A DNA stretch of 49,524 nucleotides from a virus. The stretch lies in the IMG/VR virus record IMGVR_UViG_3300006163_000006, positions 1 to 49,524 of that record, one strand, 5' to 3'. The translations under genes and the position numbers were made by a program. The notes under the pieces are model-generated. The model was not told where the DNA came from, searched no databases, and saw nothing but the letters and a program-made list of their open reading frames with translations. Positions 7,703 to 30,275 of the stretch are shown here, one piece after another. Position 1 is the stretch's first letter. Each line of letters starts with the position of its first letter.

Positions 7703-7736
7703 AGGGACGTCCAGCTGTTTCGGGCGTCCTTTTTTA
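7703..7736 (+). terminator. Rho-independent terminator of the plus-strand late operon
   Basis: GGACG (7705-7709) and CGTCC (7725-7729) form a stem followed by six T residues (7730-7735). The T tract runs into the stop codon of the convergent minus-strand gene. In the minus direction no T tract follows the stem, so termination should be one-way. Confidence 0.75.
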
Positions 7737-8432
7737 TCGATCTAAATAGTCGCGCTCCTCCTTTTCACCAGCTGTCAGCTTTTTCTCACCGTCGTTTTCG
7801 GGACCGAACACAGACTTGCGCTGGCCGCCATCTTCATAGATGGTGCCGACGTGCTGACATTTCGGCAGTTCGAATGAACCTTCCGCTCGGTGGTCTTGTG
7901 TTGTCACATGCGACTGACAGACTTCGCACTGCCAATGAATCTTGTCATTGCCGCTGACGCCTTCGAACGCAAAACCCTGCGATTGGTATACCGTGTTAAC
8001 GCGGCCGAGCGCGCCGTGTTGCGTCTTGGCGAATTCAATCAGGTTACTTATAGCCTTGATGGCATTGATCAAATCGCCCGGACCTTGCCATTGAGAAGTG
8101 ACGCGCACCACAAACTCCTCGTCGCTGCCGGTGATTTCGTTGGCGTCCAAGAAGCGCTGTATAAGCGGATTCTTTTCTGCGTAATCATCACCGGGCGCCA
8201 TCAGCGGTACGCTGCGTCCTAGTTCGTATTGCGAAAGCAGCTTTTCGGTGTAGTGCAAAGCCTTATTCAAGTCTTTCAGCCCATCCTTGTTCCGCCACCG
8301 CGTTACATATTTCGTAATGCAGCCTTCCAGATAGCGACCTTCTAACACTTCCGCGACGAAGTCCCAGTGCTGGTGCTCACTGCGGTAGTGTGCTCCGCCT
8401 ACTTGTCTACTATTAACGTTTGGTGTTGTCAT
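7734..8432 (-). CDS. DUF3310 protein, possible nucleotide kinase
   Basis: 232 residues. The N-terminal ~70 residues match DUF3310: VGGAHYR...HWDFV, then CITKYVTRWRNKDGLKDLNK. Phage T7 gp1.7, a nucleotide kinase acting on dTMP/dGMP, is commonly placed with this family (from memory). The middle (about 85-150) is unfamiliar. The C-terminus has a CxxC...H..C pattern (CEVCQSH, KCQH) suggestive of a metal site and a charged tail. Start overlaps the HD gene stop (ATGA). As the last gene of the modification cluster it could phosphorylate an unusual deoxynucleoside monophosphate; that is inference. Confidence 0.75.
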   Translation of the reverse strand: MTTPNVNSRQVGGAHYRSEHQHWDFVAEVLEGRYLEGCITKYVTRWRNKDGLKDLNKALHYTEKLLSQYELGRSVPLMAPGDDYAEKNPLIQRFLDANEITGSDEEFVVRVTSQWQGPGDLINAIKAISNLIEFAKTQHGALGRVNTVYQSQGFAFEGVSGNDKIHWQCEVCQSHVTTQDHRAEGSFELPKCQHVGTIYEDGGQRKSVFGPENDGEKKLTAGEKEERDYLDR

Positions 8433-8986
8433 TTTGATACCTTCGCAAATAAATTACAGATGGCCATATGAATCTTGACCGCCGGATGTTCGAAGCGCAG
8501 ACTATTCGTGACGTCTGTCACATACCCATTCGCGCGACCGAACACAACTTTCATGTTCGAATTACCTACACGGATTTCACGTATGCAGAACAATAAGCAT
8601 TCCATTGCATCCGCCAGCCGCAACCACTTTTCTTCTGCGTCTGTCAGTATCGGTGCTGGGCCAAAGTAGGCTTCAGCGTGCTGCTCCTCTATACGACCTA
8701 AAGATTCCCTGAACCCGTCGCCTAAAAGACGCTTCGTCGGGGAAGGTATATCGCCGATGGCGTACTCGGCTATATCGTGGCGTAACGCAGCTATCAATAA
8801 CTGCGCGCTGGGCTTACCATCGCAGAACAGCATACACAGCCACGCCACGCCAAAGCTGTGATCCGCGATGTTTTGTTGCGCATGTGTGCGCGTAATGTGG
8901 TAACGGGTGGACTCGCTACCGTCAATCAGCGCTTCCAGCGTCTGCTCCCAACTGTTCCCGTTCATCGCTTCCTGAGCTAACGGCAT
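8429..8986 (-). CDS. HD-domain phosphohydrolase, YfbR-like 5'-deoxynucleotidase
   Basis: 185 residues. It matches the YfbR/phage HD group: RYHITRTHAQQNIADHSFG (His43), then ALRHDIAEYAIGDIPSPTK (His70-Asp71) and a later Asp in LADAMEC, the H...HD...D metal set. YfbR enzymes remove phosphate from deoxynucleoside monophosphates; some phage relatives act on dNTPs. Start has a strong GAGGAG site and lies inside the 3' end of the TS-like gene (65-nt overlap). Next to a TS-fold enzyme, a role in removing a competing natural nucleotide is plausible. Confidence 0.85.
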   Translation of the reverse strand: MPLAQEAMNGNSWEQTLEALIDGSESTRYHITRTHAQQNIADHSFGVAWLCMLFCDGKPSAQLLIAALRHDIAEYAIGDIPSPTKRLLGDGFRESLGRIEEQHAEAYFGPAPILTDAEEKWLRLADAMECLLFCIREIRVGNSNMKVVFGRANGYVTDVTNSLRFEHPAVKIHMAICNLFAKVSK

Positions 8987-10043
8987 CTTGTTTCTCCTCG
9001 GGTTGAACTTCTTTATCGATGCGGCGCGCTATCCAGCCGATGCAGGCGATGCGCCAATCGTCCGCCACGATGGCGGACGCTTCCTCAAGTCCGTCGCTTT
9101 GCTTGTTCTTACGACGGCGCCATGCGTTAAGCATTGGCTGCGCCACATGGCTGAAGAACGGATCGTGATATATTTGACCGGGGACCAACGCCTGCGCCAA
9201 GAAGTTATTCAAGTCTTTCTGCCATGCGTACATATCGACAGAAACCAACGGAACGCGCGTAACGATTTCTTCGGCGGACCAGTCATTGCGCAATTTGGCG
9301 TCGCCATAATAATCGTAATCATATGCGCTGTCTATCATTTCTTGATACTTTTCCGGCGCCAGAATGTTCGTATAAGCGTGGAAGTTATTGCTGAACTGGA
9401 AATACGAGCCGACCGGTACTCCGATGGCCGCAGCAATGTACTCCTGAAGGATGGACATATGTACCGCGTTGGCGCCGTAAGCTCCCCAGATAATGTCATT
9501 ACTGCGGCAGCACACGGTCATATCCAGGCCGGTCAAGCCGATGCTGAAGTAGATATGTGTATTGCAGGGCAGGTCTACGCCGCTGGCCGGATAAGCCGTA
9601 CCGCGCTTCCATAGATCACCTTCCGGGTGCCACATGGCCAGCACGGCGCGGCGTGTGGTGGGTTCCGTACGCAACAGGCGTATGATGTGGTTCAGTTGAT
9701 CCTGACCAAAATGGTTGCGCCAGCGGTGGCCATACGCGCCATGAACAGTCAAGCCGTCGTCACTGTACAGGCCGAACTTGCTGTTGAATTGCTGCGGCCA
9801 CGCCACGTCGTTATGTCCGCCCAGCATCCACAATGCTTCCATCAAATGGAAGAATGGATTGGCGTCGCGCAGTGGACTGAACAGAACGCGGTCCTTGGGA
9901 TTTTCGTATTCCGTGATAACCGGCCCCGGCGCCACCAATACTTCGCCATTACGACTCGGCGCTTTTACCGCTACCTTTTTCAGCAGACTTAGACCCTCGC
10001 CGAGCGCTTCGTTTACGTTTTTTGCTTGAACTATGTACGGCAT
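8922..10043 (-). CDS. Thymidylate synthase-fold enzyme, probable dUMP hydroxymethylase or thymidylate synthase
   Basis: 373 residues. Thymidylate-synthase landmarks: FFHLMEALWMLGG (65-77), YGHRWR (104-109), catalytic Cys160 in VDLPCNTHIYF, RSND (180-183), GANAVHM with Asn192, and FHAY (221-224). Retention of Asn at about 192 rather than the Asp of dCMP hydroxymethylases favours a uracil substrate. The Cys is followed by Asn instead of the usual His, and the C-terminus lacks the canonical TS tail. These traits are shared by phage TS-like enzymes tied to thymine hypermodification. It would use methylene-THF to make TMP or hydroxymethyl-dUMP. AAGGAGCG precedes the ATG. The fold is certain; the exact product is not. 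Confidence 0.85.
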   Translation of the reverse strand: MPYIVQAKNVNEALGEGLSLLKKVAVKAPSRNGEVLVAPGPVITEYENPKDRVLFSPLRDANPFFHLMEALWMLGGHNDVAWPQQFNSKFGLYSDDGLTVHGAYGHRWRNHFGQDQLNHIIRLLRTEPTTRRAVLAMWHPEGDLWKRGTAYPASGVDLPCNTHIYFSIGLTGLDMTVCCRSNDIIWGAYGANAVHMSILQEYIAAAIGVPVGSYFQFSNNFHAYTNILAPEKYQEMIDSAYDYDYYGDAKLRNDWSAEEIVTRVPLVSVDMYAWQKDLNNFLAQALVPGQIYHDPFFSHVAQPMLNAWRRRKNKQSDGLEEASAIVADDWRIACIGWIARRIDKEVQPEEKQDAVSSGSDEREQLGADAGSAD

Positions 10044-10302
10044 TTTCTCGCTCCTTTTGCGTTTTGATTATCGCGACTAATTGACGCGCGCTTACTGCTA
10101 CAGCGCCGGCCGCGATAGCGGCGCTGCGTTTACTGCGGCATACATTATAATGCAGTACACCGCTATTTGAATAATGAGCCCACTGGCGCCGCACGCCGAT
10201 GTTATCCGCCATCGCGTGCAGTTCTTTTTCTGTATCCGCTATCATATGGCACATCACCATGCGGCCAAATTGCCACGCAGATTCGTCTACGTAGACGGCC
10301 AT
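9949..10302 (-). CDS. DUF4031 family protein
   Basis: 117 residues from the ATG at 10302, chosen because AAAGGAGGTGATAAC directly precedes it. The first ~80 residues match DUF4031: MAVYVDESAWQFGRM, CHMIADTEKELHAMADNIG, WAHYSNSGVLHYNV, AAIAAGAV. Function of the family is unknown. The C-terminal tail is Lys/Arg/Ser-rich and encoded within a 95-nt overlap with the TS-like gene start. Confidence 0.8.
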   Translation of the reverse strand: MAVYVDESAWQFGRMVMCHMIADTEKELHAMADNIGVRRQWAHYSNSGVLHYNVCRSKRSAAIAAGAVAVSARQLVAIIKTQKERENAVHSSSKKRKRSARRGSKSAEKGSGKSAES

Positions 10303-10523
10303 GTTATCACCTCCTTTTGTGTCTCCGACACGGATTTTAGCCAATGCGCTTCCTCTCCTTGGAAGCTAAGATACCAGCCATTACGCACTGCGTCAAACGC
10401 AAACCAGTTCGGATAGCCGGCGATCGTAACGCGTTTAATCCAAGTCGGCTCGTCCATGATGTTGCCGAAATAATGCGTGGCGCCGGACGGCGCTTCTACG
10501 TCAACTCTCACTCTTATTTTCAT
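10287..10523 (-). CDS. Small hypothetical protein
   Basis: 78 residues, acidic and Trp-rich (TWIKRV, NWFAFDAV, GWYLSF, AHWLKS). It starts 2 nt after the stop of the preceding gene and overlaps the DUF4031 start by 16 nt, so it belongs to the modification operon. No recognised domain; possibly a small beta-rich protein. Confidence 0.65.
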   Translation of the reverse strand: MKIRVRVDVEAPSGATHYFGNIMDEPTWIKRVTIAGYPNWFAFDAVRNGWYLSFQGEEAHWLKSVSETQKEVITWPST

Positions 10524-10525
10524 GA

Positions 10526-11467
10526 CTACACGCCTGCGTACAGCGAACGCGGCCGTCCTTCACCTAAGCGCGTGCGCTCGTATTTATCAAACTCACACAG
10601 ACAGTTCTGCAAGTCCTGCGCGTGCAGCTTAGGCGCATAGACACGTCTGTCTTTTTCGTCTACCATTATGTGGTACACGCGCAATGTCTTATTGACGTCG
10701 CCGCGTAGAAAGTCCAACCGCTGCCACCAGTCCTTCTCGCGCCACGGCGAATTCAATGGTCGTTGCTCTACGCGATTAAGGCCGCGACGGCTGCCCGGCC
10801 CACTGGCGGCCCATGTCCACCAGTCCTCGGCGGCGTTGAGCGGCTGAATGTACTTCAAATCCGCCACCACTTGCCCGGCCATGAAACTTCCCATGCCGTT
10901 AAATGAAGATAGTCGTTCATGATACGACGCCAGCGTTTCAGGCGCTTGTCGTGGAAAGTTGGCGTGCAGCGGGCGCATCCCACGGCGAGCATCCCAGAGC
11001 GGCGTCAAGACGTGCTTCGCCAGGTACTCCGCCTTGTCCATCGTGTGGCCATTGGTACTGACGATGTAAGCGCCACTGAATACCTTTAAGCCGGCGTCGC
11101 GTCGTGCGTGCAGCTTCTTTACGAATACGCGCCCGCCGCCCCATGCGCTCGGGTACAGTCCAAGATCAAGCAGCGTCTCCGGCCAGTTCACCAGACGCGC
11201 CACCACCATCCAGAACCAGATGTCCGGGTTTTGCCAGTGCGGGTCGCGCCAGTTCTTAGCGATCCATTGTGTGACTGTGTCCAGCTCCCGGTACACGTTG
11301 CAGAATCGGTAGGATTGTAGAATTTTATCATCGGTCCACGGCTTGGGCAGCAGCGCTTTTCTTTTTAGATAAACGCTATGGCGCTCGATTATGAAATAGC
11401 ATAACCGATCAATATTATTGTTTGAATCTTTGAGCATTTTGTAGTCGTGCCATAACTGTCCGCTCAT
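10526..11467 (-). CDS. 5-hmdU DNA kinase helical-domain / alpha-glutamyl-putrescinyl-thymine pyrophosphorylase-like protein
   Basis: 313 residues. Residues ~53-69 read YRFCNVYRELDTVTQWI, the characteristic start of the helical, DNA-glycosylase-like domain first described as alpha-glutamyl/putrescinyl thymine pyrophosphorylase and later linked to 5-hydroxymethyl-dU DNA kinases of phages with hypermodified thymine. A helix-hairpin-helix-like stretch (SSFNGMGSFMAGQVVADL, about 186-203) and a Trp-rich part follow. I see no P-loop, so any kinase activity would need a separate protein. Overlaps the glycosyltransferase-like gene by 4 nt (ATGA), indicating joint translation. Family call from motif recognition; substrate inferred. 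Confidence 0.65.
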   Translation of the reverse strand: MSGQLWHDYKMLKDSNNNIDRLCYFIIERHSVYLKRKALLPKPWTDDKILQSYRFCNVYRELDTVTQWIAKNWRDPHWQNPDIWFWMVVARLVNWPETLLDLGLYPSAWGGGRVFVKKLHARRDAGLKVFSGAYIVSTNGHTMDKAEYLAKHVLTPLWDARRGMRPLHANFPRQAPETLASYHERLSSFNGMGSFMAGQVVADLKYIQPLNAAEDWWTWAASGPGSRRGLNRVEQRPLNSPWREKDWWQRLDFLRGDVNKTLRVYHIMVDEKDRRVYAPKLHAQDLQNCLCEFDKYERTRLGEGRPRSLYAGV

Positions 11468-12273
11468 AATTGCGGTCTCCTGTCAGCAGGGTGGGAACTC
11501 TCGTAAGCCTTCTTCCATTGCATTTGAACATCTGTGCGCACGCCGCCGCCCCATGCGGTCTTCGTTTCTTTCTGCACTACTTTAACGAAGCCGGGGTGTA
11601 GCTCGGCTAAGTGCTCCGAAACCAGCCGTTGCATTTCTTCGGTTCTATAGACGCTGCATCCGCCGGCCGCGCCACTGCCGCGCTGATTGTGGCACCACTG
11701 GTAAGAAACAATATTGGCGTGACCAGCGCGCAGCAATTGCAGCGTCATATCAAAGTCTTGTTTAATGGGGACGCGATCAAAGCGTGCTTTCACTTTCATA
11801 ACTTGGCGCGTGTCGTATGCCAGCACGCGCATCATACGAGTGTTGTTGGTGTAATTGGTGACGATACGATTGGCGCCTTCCCGCGCTGCTATGCCTGCGT
11901 GCGTGTATTTCTCCAGCTGATGGTAAAGCCAGTGGAACATATCCGCCACGCTATTGTGACTCGCCGCTACATAATTTATTGAGTACTTTGGGCGCACGGC
12001 AAACGTCAGGTCATCATCAATGAGTATGATTTTCGGTTCGCGAGTATTGGCAAATCTCTCTACTAGATATTGACGGGTCGGACTTAGTTGCTTTATACGC
12101 GCAGGTAATACCAAGATGCCCAGCTGCAATTCAACCGCGATGGGTCGGTACTGCTTAGCCTCTTGCGATTGTACGACAAGGTAAGTTTGACTCTTGAAGA
12201 AAGGCGGTATGCTGCGCGCTGTGTGTTGCAGCGCCATGTCGGCGCGGCCGGATGTGTGGATCAATATTGGCAT
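11464..12273 (-). CDS. TAGT-like glycosyltransferase (GT-A fold), probable DNA-base glycosyltransferase
   Basis: 269 residues from ATG 12273; a longer TTG start at 12318 lies in the upstream terminator and is rejected. MPILIHTSGRA opens a GT-A-like fold; TRQYLVERFA then KIILIDDDLTF gives the DxD-type metal motif at 86-88. KQDFDMTLQLLRAGHANIVSY and a GGCSVYRT motif are typical of the TET-associated glycosyltransferase group of phages, thought to glycosylate hydroxymethylated bases. No TET/JBP oxygenase is obvious next to it; here the hydroxymethyl donor could be the TS-like enzyme. First gene of its operon, just after a terminator. Confidence 0.65.
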   Translation of the reverse strand: MPILIHTSGRADMALQHTARSIPPFFKSQTYLVVQSQEAKQYRPIAVELQLGILVLPARIKQLSPTRQYLVERFANTREPKIILIDDDLTFAVRPKYSINYVAASHNSVADMFHWLYHQLEKYTHAGIAAREGANRIVTNYTNNTRMMRVLAYDTRQVMKVKARFDRVPIKQDFDMTLQLLRAGHANIVSYQWCHNQRGSGAAGGCSVYRTEEMQRLVSEHLAELHPGFVKVVQKETKTAWGGGVRTDVQMQWKKAYESSHPADRRPQL

Positions 12274-12359: not shown

Positions 12360-12758
12360 TTATTTCAGCTCCAGCAAACCTTTTTTCTCGAAGCAGCGCA
12401 CGTTAGAAGTGTTCAGCGTACCGTCCGCCGTGGCGTCCGCCACCGTCTTGCCATCGAACTTGACAATGTACCTGAAGCGCTCCAGACGGCCGCCGCGCAG
12501 GTTGGCGTCATCGGGCTTCTTGGTGACAAGCTTGATGACTTTGCCGGCGACTTGGCTGGCGCGACCGACCGGGTTCTTTTCCTTGGCTGCGGCTTTGGGC
12601 GCTGCCTTCGGTGCTGCTTTGGCTTTGCTGGCCGGCGCTGCTTTGGACTTCGGCGGCGTCTTCGGGTTGGCTTTGGCTTTCGGGGCCGCTTTGGCAGCTG
12701 CGCTGCCTTTGGGGGAGGGTGCCGGGGTTGCGGTTGCGAACATGGATTTCTTGGTCAT
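12360..12758 (-). CDS. Histone H1-like, Ala/Lys/Pro-rich DNA-binding protein
   Basis: 132 residues from ATG 12758, chosen because GAGGAAATACAAA precedes it; the ATG at 12773 would place that site inside the gene. Residues ~15-65 are AAPK/KAKA-type repeats, as in histone H1 tails and bacterial AlgP/HC1-like proteins. Residues ~70-132 form a compact domain (VIKLVTKKPDDANLRGGRL, FRYIVKFDGK, NVRCFEKKGLLEL). Likely binds and compacts DNA or alters transcription; the target is unknown. It has its own upstream gap and downstream terminator, suggesting separate expression. Confidence 0.75.
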   Translation of the reverse strand: MTKKSMFATATPAPSPKGSAAAKAAPKAKANPKTPPKSKAAPASKAKAAPKAAPKAAAKEKNPVGRASQVAGKVIKLVTKKPDDANLRGGRLERFRYIVKFDGKTVADATADGTLNTSNVRCFEKKGLLELK

Positions 12759-12773
12759 TTTGTATTTCCTCAT

Positions 12774-17027: not shown

Positions 17028-17711
17028 TTAGTATTTACACGGTCCGCCTTTCTTCTTGCTGAATCCGCACCATCTACAATGGTCACCTTGTTTCGGAGCA
17101 AACGTGGTGTCGCTGAGTAGCGGCCGAACACGCTGATCCCATGTTTTCTGCATTGCCTTTTCTTCCTTACGCTCATACACTTCCTCCACGACGTCGCCGG
17201 TATCCGTAAACATTAGCCGGCCAATGACGCGCTCCACATGGTTGAACACCTTAAACCCGGAGAGTCCGTACAGACTGAGCAGCTTGTCGTAAGACTCACG
17301 CGGTTTTCCGCTCTTCCAGTCTATTATAAGCAGCGTGTTGCTTTCGGTGTCCATCATGCCGGTATCTATCTTAACACGGCACCACGCTTCCTTCGCGAAC
17401 CATCCGGACGGGCCAAGATTACCCCACTTGTTGTCAAACGTCCATTGTTCCTCCGCCATTGCCCGGCCGGCGCGCAATTGTTCCAGCTCGTCCTTGAACA
17501 ACTTTAGCTCTGGCAGCAGCTTCTTTTCCTTGCGCTTGATAAAGTCCTCGGCGCCTTTGTGAATCATGTTGCCGCGATCCATGGCTGCATTCTTTTCTTC
17601 CGGCAGACGCAGCACATGCTTACACTTGGCGGCGAACGGGCACTTGTCATAGAGCGACCAGCGGCTATAGGACCATGCGGTTATCTTTTGCGGTACGGGC
17701 TTCGCCGGCAT
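17028..17711 (-). CDS. Fe-S cluster PD-(D/E)XK nuclease (Cas4/AddB-like)
   Basis: 227 residues. Active site: Asp131 and Lys133 in LLIIDWKSGK, with an upstream His51 and acidic residue at about 116. Four Cys are spaced like the iron-sulfur nucleases Cas4 and AddB: Cys24 at the N-terminus, then Cys212-xx-Cys215-x9-Cys225. Such enzymes resect DNA ends, typically 5'-3'. Stop/start contact with the polymerase gene (1-nt overlap) shows it belongs to the replication-recombination unit. Confidence 0.85.
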   Translation of the reverse strand: MPAKPVPQKITAWSYSRWSLYDKCPFAAKCKHVLRLPEEKNAAMDRGNMIHKGAEDFIKRKEKKLLPELKLFKDELEQLRAGRAMAEEQWTFDNKWGNLGPSGWFAKEAWCRVKIDTGMMDTESNTLLIIDWKSGKPRESYDKLLSLYGLSGFKVFNHVERVIGRLMFTDTGDVVEEVYERKEEKAMQKTWDQRVRPLLSDTTFAPKQGDHCRWCGFSKKKGGPCKY

Positions 17712-19639
17712 TACGCGGCCTCCTTAACTTTTTCCAAGGTGCCCCATGTGCGCCCCATCTTGGCGTCGCTGATCATGGGAACGTCAAACTCAACGCTACG
17801 CATAACATCGCGCAGAATTAAGAGCTCTTGCTTCATTGCTTTCTGCGGTGCGCTGATATTTATTTCGTCGTGTACCGTTACTAGGAATCGGCCATTCTTG
17901 CGTACGTCGTTGTAGCGGATAATAGCTTCCTTAGTGCAGTCCGCTGCGCTGCCTTGAATAAGGTAATTCAGCAGCTTGTATTCAAAGGTGATCCAGCGGC
18001 CCTTGTGGAATATTGGTTCTTCGGTGTAGTACTCGCGGCCACCCCATGTCCGTATTGGTACGTCTTCCTTAGCGCCACGTTTGATTAACGTCTCCAGTCC
18101 ACCCAGACCCGGCATGGCGGCGCGGTGCGCTTTCTTAATAGCAACGGCGGTATCTATGTCCACGCCAAGATCACGCGCTAACTTGTCCTTGCCCATGCCA
18201 TACAAGATGCCGAAGTTCAGAATCTTAACGGCGCGACGTTCCAGTGCCATCATGGCCAGCCGGAATATTTCGCCTTTAACGAACTCGTGCATGTCCAAGC
18301 GCGGGTTGCTGTTATACGCTTCCAGCAGCGCGCTGTCTTCGTAGTGCGCCAGAATGCGGTATTCCTGCTGATTATAATCTCGGTGACCAAACCATTCGCC
18401 TTCATCACCCATGAGGTACTTCCGCATGTACGGCAGTTCAGGCAGTGATGTTATGAATTTGGGATGGACGTAGCCGTCATTCTTATCATAGAAATCTTTG
18501 GGTACGTTTTGAAAGTTGGGATTGCTACTTAGCCGGCCAGTGCGCGTTCCCTTGGCGCCGTCGCGACCGTCTTGTCTTGTTTGGTTCCAGTTGGTGAAGA
18601 TGTAGCCGTCACTGTGTTCCGCCATGTACAACCATTTGTCTAGGAATGTACCTAGGCAGGTACTCAGCCGGTTACGATAGCCGAGCACGCTGGCAATGCG
18701 CTCGCCACGTTTACCGATGAACATATCCGGCGTCAGGTTCTTTTTGGCGACGCTACGCAGCCCGGTCGGCGTGTAGACCCAGTCCGTTACGATGCCTTGC
18801 GCGTCCAGCAGCGTGGCCACTTCTTCGTCGCTATCTACGTTAAGGTCGGGCGCTTTAAATTCCTTACGCAGCCACGCGTCGGCGGTGTCCATGGCTTTAT
18901 AGTAAATCTTCTGATCCTTGCGCATCTCATTTTCATCAGCGCGCAGACCAATAGTCTCATTGTCCAATAGTATCGGCATCAGCTTCCGTTCGCGGTCGTA
19001 CGCTTCCAGCATGTTGCGCTTAGCTATCAGCGGGTACACTTTATTGAATACGCCGCGTGTGCGCGTTACGTCGCCATTCGCATAATCACCTACGATGTCG
19101 CCGGGCGCCATGCCGATAAACGCACTGGCCGCCGCTGGCGTCAGCTTCTTGGCGTTGCCCTTTTCGGTATAGCCGATGTCCGCCTGCGTTATCAGACCGT
19201 TGGCCATTAGCTCCTGCCAGTGCTGCATCAACCAGTCCACCACAATGTCGCGCTCTTCTGGCGCTACGCCCAATATGCGCTGAGCGCTGGGCTTCAGTCG
19301 TAAGTCGCGCTGGTGCGGGTCATCAAGGAACAGTAAGTACTCGGTGTCGTGTATCATGTTCCACGGCACCATCGGCACGCCCATATGCGTGACCGCCACG
19401 TCCACATCAAATTTACTATGGTGAAACAGCAATGGACCACTGAGCCATGCCTGCCGGAAGACGCGCTTGGCAGTGGCGATGTCGCAATTGTTCTTGGTCG
19501 GGTGGCCCCATGCGTAATATTCAGCGCGTTTTTTGCGCGGCTCTAATAAGGAAAAGCCGACGGGCTTTGGCGGGTACTCCGGTCGGCTTTTTATTCTATC
19601 AGTTTCAAAGTCAAGGACTAAGACTTCTGGTGCTCGCAT
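17711..19639 (-). CDS. Family A DNA polymerase with 3'-5' exonuclease domain
   Basis: 642 residues. Exonuclease motifs: DFETD (10-14), FHHSKFDVDV (72-81), YANGDVTRTR (186-195). Polymerase motifs: TGRLSSNPNFQNVP (367-380), motif A HRDYNQQEYR (Asp421), motif B RRAVKILNFGILYG (468-481) and motif C VTVHDE (Asp591). All catalytic residues are present. Motif B has Phe (476) at the site that in other enzymes tunes discrimination of sugar analogues. It replicates the phage genome and must accept any modified pyrimidine made by the 8-12 kb cluster. Clustered with nucleases, helicase and ligase. Confidence 0.95.
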   Translation of the reverse strand: MRAPEVLVLDFETDRIKSRPEYPPKPVGFSLLEPRKKRAEYYAWGHPTKNNCDIATAKRVFRQAWLSGPLLFHHSKFDVDVAVTHMGVPMVPWNMIHDTEYLLFLDDPHQRDLRLKPSAQRILGVAPEERDIVVDWLMQHWQELMANGLITQADIGYTEKGNAKKLTPAAASAFIGMAPGDIVGDYANGDVTRTRGVFNKVYPLIAKRNMLEAYDRERKLMPILLDNETIGLRADENEMRKDQKIYYKAMDTADAWLRKEFKAPDLNVDSDEEVATLLDAQGIVTDWVYTPTGLRSVAKKNLTPDMFIGKRGERIASVLGYRNRLSTCLGTFLDKWLYMAEHSDGYIFTNWNQTRQDGRDGAKGTRTGRLSSNPNFQNVPKDFYDKNDGYVHPKFITSLPELPYMRKYLMGDEGEWFGHRDYNQQEYRILAHYEDSALLEAYNSNPRLDMHEFVKGEIFRLAMMALERRAVKILNFGILYGMGKDKLARDLGVDIDTAVAIKKAHRAAMPGLGGLETLIKRGAKEDVPIRTWGGREYYTEEPIFHKGRWITFEYKLLNYLIQGSAADCTKEAIIRYNDVRKNGRFLVTVHDEINISAPQKAMKQELLILRDVMRSVEFDVPMISDAKMGRTWGTLEKVKEAA

Positions 19640-20163: not shown

Positions 20164-20730
20164 CTACGAAAGAATGTACTCGTTGGCGCGCGCCCAATTC
20201 GGCGGCTGCCAGCCAGCCGGTTTCAGCAGCTTGCCTTTCGGGAACGCGCTGGTCTCCTCGGCGGCGAATGCAGCCCAGATACCGGGCGACGGCTCGCGCC
20301 ATTCAATGACTACGTTCTGCGGACGATACTTGTCCTCAGTGTCGTGCTTTTCCTTGTCGCTGCGCACGGTCTTCAGCATGTTGGATTCGTGTACGATGGT
20401 GAACGCGCCCGGTAAGTCGATGCCAACATCTGCGGCCAGCGCTTCAAAGTTGCGCAGGTACTGCATGACGTCGATCTGCGCGAACTCGCCGGCGTCAATG
20501 TCGTAGCCCAGCAATACCACGACGCAGTCCGCCAGTGCGTCGGCTTTGTCCGCCAGCGTGCGCGCCAGTTGCAGCTCCACCGTTTCTTCTAGCAGCAACT
20601 TCAGGTGGAGCAAATGAATAGCGTTGCTGCCGCTGGCAATGGGCAAACAGGTATAACGGCGGAACTGCAATACCGCTGCCTGATACGTGTTGTAACGGGC
20701 GCGGATAATATCTTCAGCGAAATATTCCAT
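20164..20730 (-). CDS. MazG/PRA-PH-like nucleotide pyrophosphohydrolase
   Basis: 188 residues. LLLEETVEL (Glu48-49, Glu52) and ADKADALADCVVVLLG (Asp61, Asp64, Asp68) match the metal-binding helices of all-alpha NTP pyrophosphohydrolases. The segment AFTIVHESNMLKT and later GKLLKPAGWQPP are typical of the phage MazG-like group that ends in 'GKV.KP..W..P'. It would cleave an NTP/dNTP to NMP and pyrophosphate. In a phage with a modified base it could remove the normal competitor nucleotide. Confidence 0.75.
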   Translation of the reverse strand: MEYFAEDIIRARYNTYQAAVLQFRRYTCLPIASGSNAIHLLHLKLLLEETVELQLARTLADKADALADCVVVLLGYDIDAGEFAQIDVMQYLRNFEALAADVGIDLPGAFTIVHESNMLKTVRSDKEKHDTEDKYRPQNVVIEWREPSPGIWAAFAAEETSAFPKGKLLKPAGWQPPNWARANEYILS

Positions 20731-26216: not shown

Positions 26217-26600
26217 CTATTCTCCTTCCACAAGGGCAGTGTTGAGTATATCGCGGATTTGCAGCAGTGCGTTGCGGTAGGTTTCGACGTCCGCGAGTAC
26301 CGTCGTGAACCCATCAACTAAACCGTTGTACTTCGCAGGCGAAACGACAATGTCCTTATTGGCGTTCTTCTCCGGCTTAACCGCTTCGTAGAACGGCTTG
26401 CCCGGCTTGGCCAGATAGGAGGGTTTGCCGCCAACCGAAATACGCTTACTGATGCGCTTGGCTTCCGCCAGTCGATAGAGAATGTTGCCAGCCTGTTTAT
26501 TAGAGAGCTTGGTGGCGGCCGCAATTTCTTCCATACTCATTGCTTTACCATTAGCCTCTAACGCGGCGATTACTTTGTCCGTTAGGTTGCCGTATTTCAT
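26217..26600 (-). CDS. Winged helix-turn-helix DNA-binding protein
   Basis: 127 residues. Residues 1-58 form a winged HTH: LTDKVIAALEANGKAMSMEE, IAAATKLSNKQAGNILYRLA, EAKRISKRISVGGKPSYLA. The C-terminal half is a helical segment. Likely a transcription regulator of phage or host genes; target not visible. Start overlaps the stop of the dCTP-deaminase-like gene (ATGA). Confidence 0.7.
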   Translation of the reverse strand: MKYGNLTDKVIAALEANGKAMSMEEIAAATKLSNKQAGNILYRLAEAKRISKRISVGGKPSYLAKPGKPFYEAVKPEKNANKDIVVSPAKYNGLVDGFTTVLADVETYRNALLQIRDILNTALVEGE

Positions 26601-27163
26601 TTTGGTGGTTGCTCCGTTGGTTTTGCACCTTTGACAGTGCGGTCATGGTTATAGCGTCCGCGTGCTGCGTAGCTCCTTTGATAGTCGACGGCTTCGTGCT
26701 GTAGGAAAGTCACTTGACCGATACGATCGCCCGGCCGCAGACGTATATAATGGCCGCGCGTCATATTCTTCAGCTCAAGCGTGAGGACGCTGTTGTGGAA
26801 CCCGGCGTCTATCCACCCCGCCGTTAGATGCTCCAGACCAATGCGCGCCATGGACGACTTGAGCTTGTACTCGGCGCTTAGGTTCAGCGGCATGTGGAAC
26901 ATCTGTACGCTGTGCGCCAGTAGGAATTCGCCCGGCGCCATGTCGTAACAGCCCGAGGCGTTTAGATCGACTGTTCTGGTGCGCAGCTGCGCGCCATTGT
27001 TCAATCCAAGTGTATGTCTTTGGTTTGGCTCTACGTGTTCTACCAGCAGCGTTTTTCCTAGCGTCAGATCGATGCTGCTGGCGTTTATCATGTTTTCTGT
27101 GACGTTCGTGATAACACCGCGCGCCACTAGTAGCACTAGCTGGTCGTAGCTCAACAGACTCAT
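26597..27163 (-). CDS. dCTP deaminase-like / dUTPase-like protein
   Basis: 188 residues from ATG 27163, with AAGGAAGATTTTA upstream. Family marks: INASSIDLTLG, EFLLAHSVQMFHMP, LKSSMARIGLEHLTAGWIDA (the gRSSxAR and catalytic regions), LTLELKN with the active-site Glu, and RPGDRIGQVTFL. Dcd enzymes convert dCTP to dUTP (some also to dUMP). In this phage that would feed the TS-like enzyme with dUMP. Its 5' half is translated from within the LuxR-type ORF. Confidence 0.82.
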   Translation of the reverse strand: MSLLSYDQLVLLVARGVITNVTENMINASSIDLTLGKTLLVEHVEPNQRHTLGLNNGAQLRTRTVDLNASGCYDMAPGEFLLAHSVQMFHMPLNLSAEYKLKSSMARIGLEHLTAGWIDAGFHNSVLTLELKNMTRGHYIRLRPGDRIGQVTFLQHEAVDYQRSYAARGRYNHDRTVKGAKPTEQPPK

Positions 27164-27413
27164 TAAAATCTTCCTTTTTAGGAACAATAAGACCCAGAGA
27201 AACACAGCGCATGATGGCGCCGTAAGTTGTGTCCACATCTAAAGCGCGGCGCGCTGCCGCCGCAAACTGGTTAGCCGTGCTGATGCTGATGCCCATTACC
27301 AGCGCGGCCTCATTTAATGTGTAGTCGTTGGCAAGAACCATCATCAATTCAAACGGACGCCGATTGATGTAGGAAACTTTCTTTCTACGAATAACATGAA
27401 ATGGCTTAGTCAT
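26775..27413 (-). CDS. LuxR/GerE-type HTH ORF extended over the dcd-like gene
   Basis: 212 codons. Residues ~14-78 look like a LuxR-type HTH (INRRPFELMMVLANDYTLNE, AALVMGISISTANQFAAAAR, AIMRCVSLGLI). GGAAGATC precedes the ATG. The remaining ~129 codons share DNA with the dcd-like gene in another frame of the same strand; their product is Arg/His/Ala-rich and does not look folded. Either the normal stop has been lost or the ORF runs on by chance. A sequencing error is possible. The HTH part is probably real. Confidence 0.6.
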   Translation of the reverse strand: MTKPFHVIRRKKVSYINRRPFELMMVLANDYTLNEAALVMGISISTANQFAAAARRALDVDTTYGAIMRCVSLGLIVPKKEDFNESVELRPASATSGARCYHERHRKHDKRQQHRSDARKNAAGRTRRAKPKTYTWIEQWRAAAHQNSRSKRLGLLRHGAGRIPTGAQRTDVPHAAEPKRRVQAQVVHGAHWSGASNGGVDRRRVPQQRPHA

Positions 27414-27433: not shown

Positions 27434-28288
27434 TTACAACGTCTTCAATATTTCCCTTGCACTGTCCAACATGTGGCGCAGACCTTTCAGCTGCTCGTCC
27501 TTGCTGTTTACTTCAATGCGCAGATGCGAAGACGCGTCGCGCTCCTGTGCCAGCAGGCTATGCACCTTATGCAGTTCATGACGCTGCTGGAGCATGTGGT
27601 CGCCTTGCTGCTGGCGCTCGTTTTCACTGGCGCGCAACGCGGCCGTCTTTTCTTCAAACGCTTTCTTGTACTGCACAGCGTTGTGCTCAAAGTTGACAGC
27701 ACGCTCGTGCATGTTCGCCAGTTCTTTCTCCAGACTTTCAACTTTTTCCTTCAGTCTAGCATTGCAGGCTTCGTACAGTATCTCCCTGTTGTCGCGCGGG
27801 TCCGGCGCTTGGTACGGCTTGCCGATGTGAAAATCTTCGCTCGGCTCTTTATACTTGCCGACAGCACGATCCACCGATACTCCGTTCTCCGTGGCGGGTA
27901 TCAGCAGCACTGGCAGCTTTTCCCGCGCGCTCACCATATTGAAGGCGTATACCACGCAGTCTTCCATTTCCAGACCGAGCGACTGAGCCACTAGATCAGC
28001 GTATAGATATAGGTCTCCCAGTTCTTTGCGTACCTTATCGCGAGCTTCGTGTACCGTGGCGGAATTGTTGCTGGCGTTAATGCCAGATTCCAGCCGGCGC
28101 ATCTTCTTGATAAAACCTGCGACGCGGCTGGCAGTGATAACCAGTTGCACCACGGCTTCCATGAGCTCCCCCGCTTCCTCGGTCATAGCGGCGGCCCACT
28201 CCAACGGTGACCAGTCTGTGAGGCCGCCCTTCTGGTGCCACATGCCACAACGTTCCATATTCTTCTTAGCGACTTCATTGAATTGCAT
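27434..28288 (-). CDS. MazG-like pyrophosphohydrolase with long coiled-coil tail
   Basis: 284 residues. The N-terminus carries the MazG-type metal helices: MTEEAGELMEAV (Glu37-38, Glu41) and VRKELGDLYLYADLVAQSLG (Glu89, Asp92). Residues ~175-284 form a long coiled coil (LKEKVESLEKELANMHERAV...), an unusual appendage for this family. Would hydrolyse an NTP/dNTP; second such enzyme in this genome. Its start overlaps the TM/coil gene by 14 nt. Confidence 0.75.
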   Translation of the reverse strand: MQFNEVAKKNMERCGMWHQKGGLTDWSPLEWAAAMTEEAGELMEAVVQLVITASRVAGFIKKMRRLESGINASNNSATVHEARDKVRKELGDLYLYADLVAQSLGLEMEDCVVYAFNMVSAREKLPVLLIPATENGVSVDRAVGKYKEPSEDFHIGKPYQAPDPRDNREILYEACNARLKEKVESLEKELANMHERAVNFEHNAVQYKKAFEEKTAALRASENERQQQGDHMLQQRHELHKVHSLLAQERDASSHLRIEVNSKDEQLKGLRHMLDSAREILKTL

Positions 28289-29494: not shown

Positions 29495-29727
29495 GGCAGC
29501 TCCTTTGTGTAAGGTGCCAGCGCTTCCGTCATCTCTTTGGCGTACTTCTCCAAGCTGACGGCAACGTCGTGGACTGTGATCTCAGCGTCTTCGTCTAGAA
29601 ATTTGTTGACCACGGCAACGACGTTCGCATGATTTTGCGCGTAGTAGTCCAAGCGCTGGCGGTACATGTTCTGATAAGTAGCTTCGTCCGCTGCCGTCCA
29701 TATGATTGGCGCGCGTTGTTTGTTCAT
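29491..29727 (-). CDS. Small hypothetical protein
   Basis: 78 residues from ATG 29727 (ATGA overlap with the beta-barrel gene). Helical and Tyr/Ala-rich: EATYQNMYRQRLDYYAQNHA, EITVHDVAVSLEKYAKEMTE. No family recognised. Confidence 0.55.
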   Translation of the reverse strand: MNKQRAPIIWTAADEATYQNMYRQRLDYYAQNHANVVAVVNKFLDEDAEITVHDVAVSLEKYAKEMTEALAPYTKELP

Positions 29728-30275
29728 AGCTGCCACCGAAAGCCGACGGACATGAATTCCTCGGGCACTACATGGAAAACGATAGCGGCGCGTCCGTAGG
29801 TGACTGCAACGTTAGGGACGATAACGGGCGCCCATGCTCCGACTGTTGAAAGGTGGTTACGGTAGCCGGTAACGGCGCCCACTTCGGCACCGACTTCGAT
29901 GTGTGGCAGCACCTGCCAGCTAAAACGCCGAGCAAGAAGGACAGAGCGATTGTAGTAGGAATTTTTAAACGTTGAAACACCCCAATGTTCATGCTCATAT
30001 CCTATGAGATCGTGGTTGCTGTTGTAGTCGTAGCGATTGTTGAAATGCGCGCTCCACGCACCTACATAAATATAGTCCATGTATTCTTTCTTGTCGGCGC
30101 CGCACTCATCTTTAACCATGCAACGGAACTCGGCGTCTTCGTATACCGGGCCGCCGTCGCCGAGGTAGTCTTGTGCGTGCGCTTTGGGAGTGAATAGTGA
30201 AGCAATGAAAATGAGTACAGCGATGAACAGCAGGTAAAGCAGGAGGTACTTACAAACTCTAATTAAAGGTTCCAT
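29724..30275 (-). CDS. Exported beta-barrel-like protein (PagL/PagP-like, uncertain)
   Basis: 183 residues. The signal peptide is very hydrophobic (YLLLYLLFIAVLIFIASLF) and ends AKAHA, like an AxA site. The mature part has alternating, aromatic-rich strands (DYIYVGAWSAHFNNRYDYNS, EHWGVSTFKNSYYNRSVLLA, HIEVGAEVGAVTGYRNHLST, EEFMSVGFRWQL) and ends in an aromatic-containing strand, as outer-membrane barrels do. It resembles small lipid-A-modifying barrels only loosely. It is the first gene after a strong promoter. A role in superinfection exclusion is conceivable. Confidence 0.55.
   Translation of the reverse strand: MEPLIRVCKYLLLYLLFIAVLIFIASLFTPKAHAQDYLGDGGPVYEDAEFRCMVKDECGADKKEYMDYIYVGAWSAHFNNRYDYNSNHDLIGYEHEHWGVSTFKNSYYNRSVLLARRFSWQVLPHIEVGAEVGAVTGYRNHLSTVGAWAPVIVPNVAVTYGRAAIVFHVVPEEFMSVGFRWQL

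Follow-up and report, generated by a model that had tools for sequence, protein, structure and literature searches.

The 49,524-base window analyzed here is the whole of IMG/VR virus record IMGVR_UViG_3300006163_000006. Between positions 7734 and 12273 it carries an operon that combines a thymidylate synthase (TS)-fold enzyme, an HMUDK_hel protein and a TAGT-family glycosyltransferase, types linked to modified bases in phage DNA. The ORF list agrees with the first-pass annotation, a model's reading of the letters, that seven consecutive open reading frames (ORFs) lie here on the minus strand; most neighbors overlap, by anything from a few bases to some tens. In order of transcription they are as follows.

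11464-12273, minus strand: TAGT-family GT-A glycosyltransferase, 269 aa, candidate sugar transferase for 5-hydroxymethyl-deoxyuridine (hmdU) in DNA (PF20691, 9.6e-13; phrog_842, 1e-42)
10526-11467, minus strand: stand-alone HMUDK_hel protein (aGPT-PPlase clade 1), candidate DNA/base-presenting partner of TAGT (PF18723, 5.7e-45)
10287-10523, minus strand: 78-aa ORF between HMUDK_hel and DUF4031 (no Pfam match, weak PHROG matches only)
9949-10344, minus strand: DUF4031 protein (PF13223, 1e-25; start TTG at 10344, in-frame ATG at 10302)
8922-10043, minus strand: TS-fold pyrimidine hydroxymethylase, predicted dUMP type, 373 aa (PF00303, 1.8e-15; phrog_5131, 3.6e-111)
8429-8986, minus strand: YfbR-like HD 5'-deoxynucleotidase/dNTP phosphohydrolase (PF12917, 5.5e-13; phrog_7076, dATP triphosphohydrolase, 7.6e-14)
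7734-8432, minus strand: DUF3310 protein, the final gene of the operon (PF11753, 1.5e-6)

All except the 78-aa ORF have best Pfam hits above the curated cut-offs, together with PHROG matches, and the TS-like, HD, DUF3310, HMUDK_hel and TAGT assignments made at first pass are upheld by them. The HMM searches proposed there for the last two families both gave matches: HMUDK_hel scores 154 bits against a cut-off of 25, over essentially the full length (4-277 of 281), and TAGT scores 49 bits against 27.5. Scores of phages have these genes together, so their grouping is not a matter of chance.

The base specificity of the TS-fold enzyme was read from an alignment of 87 proteins, with residues numbered as in Escherichia coli TS. 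The window enzyme keeps the equivalents of the catalytic Cys146 (in DLPCN), Arg166 (in CCRSND) and Asn177 and has the TS fold, and its His147 equivalent is an Asn, the same as in gp17 of phage YuA. The Asn147/Asn177 pair is common to 82 of the 87 sequences, YuA gp17 included, and the uracil-type Asn177 is found in the window, in YuA, and in 75 of the 78 TS proteins from TAGT loci. T4 gp42 and its dCMP-type relatives have Thr147 and Asp177 (in T4 and in the phage Bustleton, discussed below, the automatic alignment shifted Asp177 by one column, and the residue was assigned by eye), and positions 147 and 177 have been singled out as the two discriminating modified-cytosine contigs (PMC8670742). 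Identity to YuA gp17 is 44.8% over 339 aligned residues, versus 17% to T4 gp42. By its residues and its orthology to the YuA/M6-type dUMP hydroxymethylase, the window TS is of predicted dUMP (uracil) type, and its orthology to YuA gp17 predicts that it hydroxymethylates rather than methylates. M6-like phages have bases derived from 5hmdU (PMC9476957, PMC6449724). Since the window TS is of uracil type and an ortholog of the enzyme in these hypermodifying phages, the first-pass proposal that hmdU would be made at the nucleotide level and then derivatized on DNA is the best reading. The HD protein also adjoins TS in the YuA-type phage SN1 and in MW202897.

If the modified base were cytosine, the TS would yield hmdCMP and TAGT would glycosylate 5-hydroxymethylcytosine (hmC) as in T-even phages. 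This would fit the T6 beta-glucosyl-HMC-alpha-glucosyltransferase, the named member of the TAGT family, which acts on glucosyl-hmC (PMC13216743), the naming of the Brevibacterium phage LuckyBarnes TS as a dCMP hydroxymethylase by its authors (PMC6588365), and three TAGT/HMUDK_hel loci with Asp177. However, the window TS has Asn177 and resembles YuA gp17 far more than T4 gp42, and the LuckyBarnes TS (L005, 7601-9154) likewise has Asn at position 177 and is of uracil type, leaving the cytosine explanation with a small probability. The three Asp177 loci, L086, L087, and L091 of IMG/VR, contain TAGT and HMUDK_hel next to a TS with the Thr147/Asp177 pair, and their sequences suggest that glycosyl-hmC is made there with the same partner protein, HMUDK_hel. 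The idea that it is the TAGT loci without HMUDK_hel that are cytosine type was rejected, as MW202897 and L063 have Asn-type TS proteins, while the TAGT loci of Asp type do possess HMUDK_hel.

The TAGT protein starts with an ATG at 12273, and phrog_842 is annotated as beta-glucosyl-HMC-alpha-glucosyltransferase. Its acidic DDD motif (D86-D88) is invariant in 45 homologues. An AF2 model, for which, as for HMUDK_hel below, the alignment held window and IMG/VR rows only, has a pLDDT of 95.5, and its Foldseek matches in the PDB include TarP/TarS along with further GT-A enzymes (best E 2.8e-6, TM about 0.45-0.5). Profile, GT-A fold and acidic metal motif together place the protein in the TAGT family; it is a candidate enzyme for transferring a sugar to a hydroxymethylpyrimidine in DNA.

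The family name implies a link to TET/JBP oxygenases, which does not hold for this TAGT group. A single-sequence TAGT search of IMG/VR gave zero relatives, and an alignment-based profile search was needed; it recovered 162, of which 80 were kept. Whole-record searches covered 50 TAGT records (three annotated phages and 47 virus records, one of them the window) and found HMUDK_hel in 47, TS in 47, the HMUDK kinase in none and TET in one, phage DLP_6; the searches detected no TS and no HMUDK_hel in that phage. At the level of 66 non-redundant TAGT loci, both HMUDK_hel and TS lie within ±10 kb in 60 and a kinase in none. The loci were chosen by similarity, and these counts are not natural frequencies. 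TAGT and HMUDK_hel are usually side by side, with a median gap of -1 bp, and the gene orders seen with local profiles are TAGT-HMUDK_hel-TS-HD-DUF3310 or HMUDK_hel-TAGT-TS; DUF3310 follows TS/HD in most related loci, and family A DNA polymerase (PolA) is near the cluster in many. The first-pass annotation had called TS plus TAGT without TET less familiar. In this TAGT clade, TS with TAGT and HMUDK_hel and without TET is instead the rule, and a report on pelagiphages already notes the gene combination (PMC9599517).

An ordinary thymidylate synthase next to a TAGT acting on a non-DNA target, such as a host surface glycan, would make the co-localization incidental. dTMP synthases do share Asn177, and wall teichoic acid transferases are among the closest folds to TAGT in the PDB. 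We nevertheless consider this explanation very improbable, given that TAGT is constantly linked with HMUDK_hel, TS, HD and DUF3310 in divergent phages and that the His147 equivalent is Asn, as in the TS of hmdU phages. In addition, the Pfam TS match of the window enzyme stops at 215 of 266, and the canonical C-terminal folate-closing part is therefore unrecognized.

The search for the P-loop kinase domain that defines the 5-hmdU DNA kinase HMUDK (PF18748) gave no match anywhere in the window record; as a positive control, the same profile detected it in 7 of 11 phages that have HMUDK_hel but belong to other types. Walker A motifs are confined to the terminase, one left-end ORF and the inside of the DUF4031 ORF, and the two scans rule out a kinase hidden elsewhere in the window. 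Of the "hmdU-kinase-domain protein" described at first pass, the helical domain is present and the P-loop domain is absent, so the protein brings no kinase. No TET/JBP oxygenase was found in the whole record, in keeping with the earlier remark that none is adjacent and ruling out one encoded elsewhere in the window. ADDT (amino acid:DNA transferase), PLP and radical SAM families had no match among the window proteins scanned, PF18724 not having been searched over the whole record.

These searches bear on an M6-like amino-acid or amine hypermodification with a divergent, unrecognized kinase. The thymidine hypermodification cluster of M6/YuA (Yuavirus), for 5-NedU (PMC11946847, PMC9476957), has a TS-fold dUMP hydroxymethylase (45% identity to the window TS), HMUDK_hel (36%, YuA gp14), HD and DUF3310 in the same order near PolA, and the four window genes match the YuA/SN1 cluster in order and kind. 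In contrast to the window, which carries TAGT, YuA-type phages have HMUDK kinase, Nmad5, ADDT, PLP and radical SAM genes, none of which was found in the window. The M6-type combination of kinase, ADDT and PLP/radical SAM enzymes is thus missing from the proteins scanned, and TAGT and kinase are mutually exclusive in every locus tested, which makes an M6-like chemistry extremely improbable.

This mutual exclusion was followed in the 80 IMG/VR loci whose HMUDK_hel is most similar to that of the window: TAGT is present in 31, a kinase in 23 (8 with ADDT), neither in 26 and both in none. Whole-record searches with PF18748 confirmed 19 of the 23 kinase labels, and TAGT was found in 0 of the 23 kinase-labeled records; all six TAGT controls had TAGT and no kinase. 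On a tree of 113 HMUDK_hel proteins, built by a quick method with SH-aLRT as the only support, the kinase/TAGT label requires 17 changes, or 14 when long or odd rows are removed, and sister pairs with differing labels have SH-aLRT values of 96-99 (e.g., L154/L176, L141/L155, and L135/L016). Of phylogenetically independent pairs on supported branches, eight have a kinase in one member only; TAGT differs in the opposite direction in 5-6 of these and never in the same one (p 0.03-0.06). TAGT occupies, in scores of uncultured phages, the place held by a DNA kinase in known relatives. The HMUDK_hel genes of the actinophages Bustleton (a Microbacterium phage; L008, 1364-1966) and WilliamStrong (L015, 6449-7378) are also sisters; the former adjoins a P-loop nucleotide kinase 3 and the latter a TAGT-like GT-A protein, and both phages have a T4-like cytosine-type TS.

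Several of the loci with neither gene have an unannotated protein in this slot, directly against HMUDK_hel. Those of L099 (104-1051), L103 (9030-9980), L104, L109 (383-1339), L130 (4281-5423), and L133 (8832-9965) are mutually related and are a candidate new family of DNA-modifying enzymes. By eye we suspected GT-B enzymes, an identity that was not confirmed: the slot proteins have no Pfam or named PHROG family, and in profile searches against the PDB the top hit of one set was a group 1 glycosyltransferase (E 0.19), with no useful hit for two further sets. Another locus of this class, L137, has a radical SAM-SPASM protein.

As HMUDK_hel remains constant while kinase or TAGT alternates beside it, it cannot be part of the kinase only. 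The window protein gives an all-helical AF2 model (pLDDT 92.5) with no PDB match by structure comparison (E ≥ 3) or by sequence. About 25 positions show the same conservation whether the protein is paired with a kinase or with TAGT, including R29, N57, R60, D63, R91, D203, G223, G225, C291, E292, and K295, and of the invariant ones the window protein keeps R29, N57, R60, D63, C291, E292, and K295. This conservation is consistent with a shared role, such as DNA binding with presentation of the hydroxymethyl base, or site choice. Resistant hypermodified sites prefer TG/TC, for which the kinase has been credited (PMC6449724); HMUDK_hel is a candidate for this choice. In phage SP10, HMUDK_hel forms part of a 637-aa protein that bears the name 5-hmdU DNA kinase.

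We give close to even odds to the idea that HMUDK_hel is a general subunit presenting or targeting hydroxymethyl-pyrimidines in DNA, for which its name would be too narrow. Its effectors would be exchangeable (5-hmdU kinase, GT-A transferase or the unannotated slot proteins), phages with the glycosyltransferase form would bear base J-like glycosyl-hmdU, and HMUDK_hel would serve as a beacon for new enzymes. Alternatively, HMUDK_hel could itself be a catalyst, for example, a distant ADDT-like enzyme working on the hydroxymethyl base, with TAGT acting before or after it. In BFVD, ADDT is the sole distant structural relative beyond the HMUDK_hel family itself (rank 10, probability 1.00, TM 0.50, E 6e-3), and the conserved charged residues with the C-E-x-x-K invariant in all classes could form an active site. 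This likeness may keep a catalytic role open, but an E value of 6e-3 is weak, and the family persists through the kinase/glycosyltransferase exchanges, although the two enzymes call for no shared second chemistry; we regard the catalyst explanation as unlikely.

Taken with the enzyme families, these results lead us to propose, with a probability of about 60%, that the operon builds glycosylated hmdU in the phage genome, hmdU replacing thymine; the chemistry, the sugar and the role of HMUDK_hel are predictions. Three genes outside the operon would contribute.

26597-27238, minus strand: dCTP deaminase-like protein, not adjacent, probable source of dUMP/dUTP (PF22769, 6.8e-27; phrog_1663, dCTP deaminase, 1.1e-39)
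27434-28288, minus strand: MazG-like nucleotide pyrophosphohydrolase, not adjacent, supporting (PF03819, 1.5e-5)
17711-19639, minus strand: PolA, presumed incorporator of hmdUTP (PF00476, 5.1e-52)

The dCTP deaminase, MazG and HD proteins would supply dUMP and may deplete dTTP, and the TS-fold enzyme would convert dUMP to hmdUMP, as its residue type and orthology suggest. After phosphorylation by some kinase, perhaps the host's, the nucleotide would be incorporated by the phage PolA. TAGT, from its predicted fold and DDD motif, would then use a nucleotide-sugar donor to glycosylate the 5-hydroxymethyl group in DNA, and the stand-alone HMUDK_hel, on the strength of its co-occurrence and exchange patterns, may bind DNA and present the hydroxymethyl base or select the modified sites; in other phages the same partner accompanies the 5-hmdU DNA kinase. 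The product, close to base J, would shield the DNA from host nucleases.

Several observations weigh against this proposal. No hmdUMP kinase or sugar-nucleotide gene was recognized in the window, and Asn177, which dTMP synthases have too, cannot alone tell a dUMP hydroxymethylase apart from such an enzyme. Almost all of the related loci belong to records of uncultured viruses, and many of these records are fragments; 4 of the 23 kinase labels are unconfirmed by PF18748, with only 7 above its curated cut-off. Finally, HMUDK_hel also lies beside cytosine-type (Asp177) TS in L086, L087, L091, Bustleton and WilliamStrong and is not uracil-specific; its role would therefore concern hydroxymethyl-pyrimidines and not uracil alone.

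For base J of kinetoplastids, JBP oxygenases and a different glucosyltransferase act on thymine already in DNA. The product proposed here would likewise be an O-glycosylated 5-hydroxymethyluracil, although hmdU would be made as a nucleotide. Phage SP-15 also has a glycosylated hypermodified thymine, glucosylated dihydroxypentyluracil, but its sugar sits on a dihydroxypentyl side chain and its sugar-gene set is different (PMC5977210). The T6 enzyme belongs to the same GT-A family, PF20691; in T-even phages, however, the T4 TS homologue is of the dCMP (Asp) type, the T6 enzyme uses glucosyl-hmC as its substrate and attaches a second sugar, and no link to HMUDK_hel is reported (PMC13216743). Solitary TAGTs have been described in 288 phage genomes (PMC13216743). 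Closer to the window are HTVC023P-type pelagiphages, with TS, aGPT-PPlase1 (PF18723), 5'-deoxynucleotidase and a putative beta-glucosyl-HMC-alpha-glucosyltransferase in one region near a DNA polymerase; the accessible part of that report presents them as co-located auxiliary metabolic genes and does not draw out the absence of a kinase, the kinase/glycosyltransferase exchange or a mechanism (PMC9599517). LuckyBarnes, for which a TS homologue and two glycosyltransferases were reported (PMC6588365), has TS, TAGT and HMUDK_hel side by side, with no kinase or TET found, and differs from the window in its two TAGT copies and the C-terminal extension of its TS.

A statement from 2019 holds that glycosylated 5hmdU had not been reported in phage genomes (PMC6449724). 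The widespread TS, HMUDK_hel and TAGT cassette predicts that many uncultured phages, and at least LuckyBarnes among those in culture, contain this base. The repeated swapping between kinase and glycosyltransferase, of which we found no published statement in the literature searched (the main pathway papers lay outside it), gives HMUDK_hel a testable role and marks sites of possible unrecognized DNA-modifying enzymes.

Elsewhere in the window, PolA, an exonuclease, an SNF2 helicase, a ligase, and the dCTP deaminase-like and MazG proteins are encoded on the same strand as the operon. The ORF at 20164-20730 (minus) aligns with the C-terminal portion of a long PHROG annotated as nucleotide pyrophosphohydrolase (9.5e-18) and may serve nucleotide pool control. 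Directly upstream of TAGT, 12360-12773 (minus) encodes a small Lys/Ala/Pro-rich protein; look-alikes precede the cluster in a few relatives, and a composition test found them in only 7 of 112 loci, ruling it out as a regular cluster member. The terminase is nearest to those of Variovorax, Stenotrophomonas, Pseudomonas and Burkholderia phages (62-66% identity), and the ORF at 29724-30275 (minus) matches phrog_3600 (8e-28), described as a PagP-like lipid A acylation/antimicrobial peptide resistance protein.

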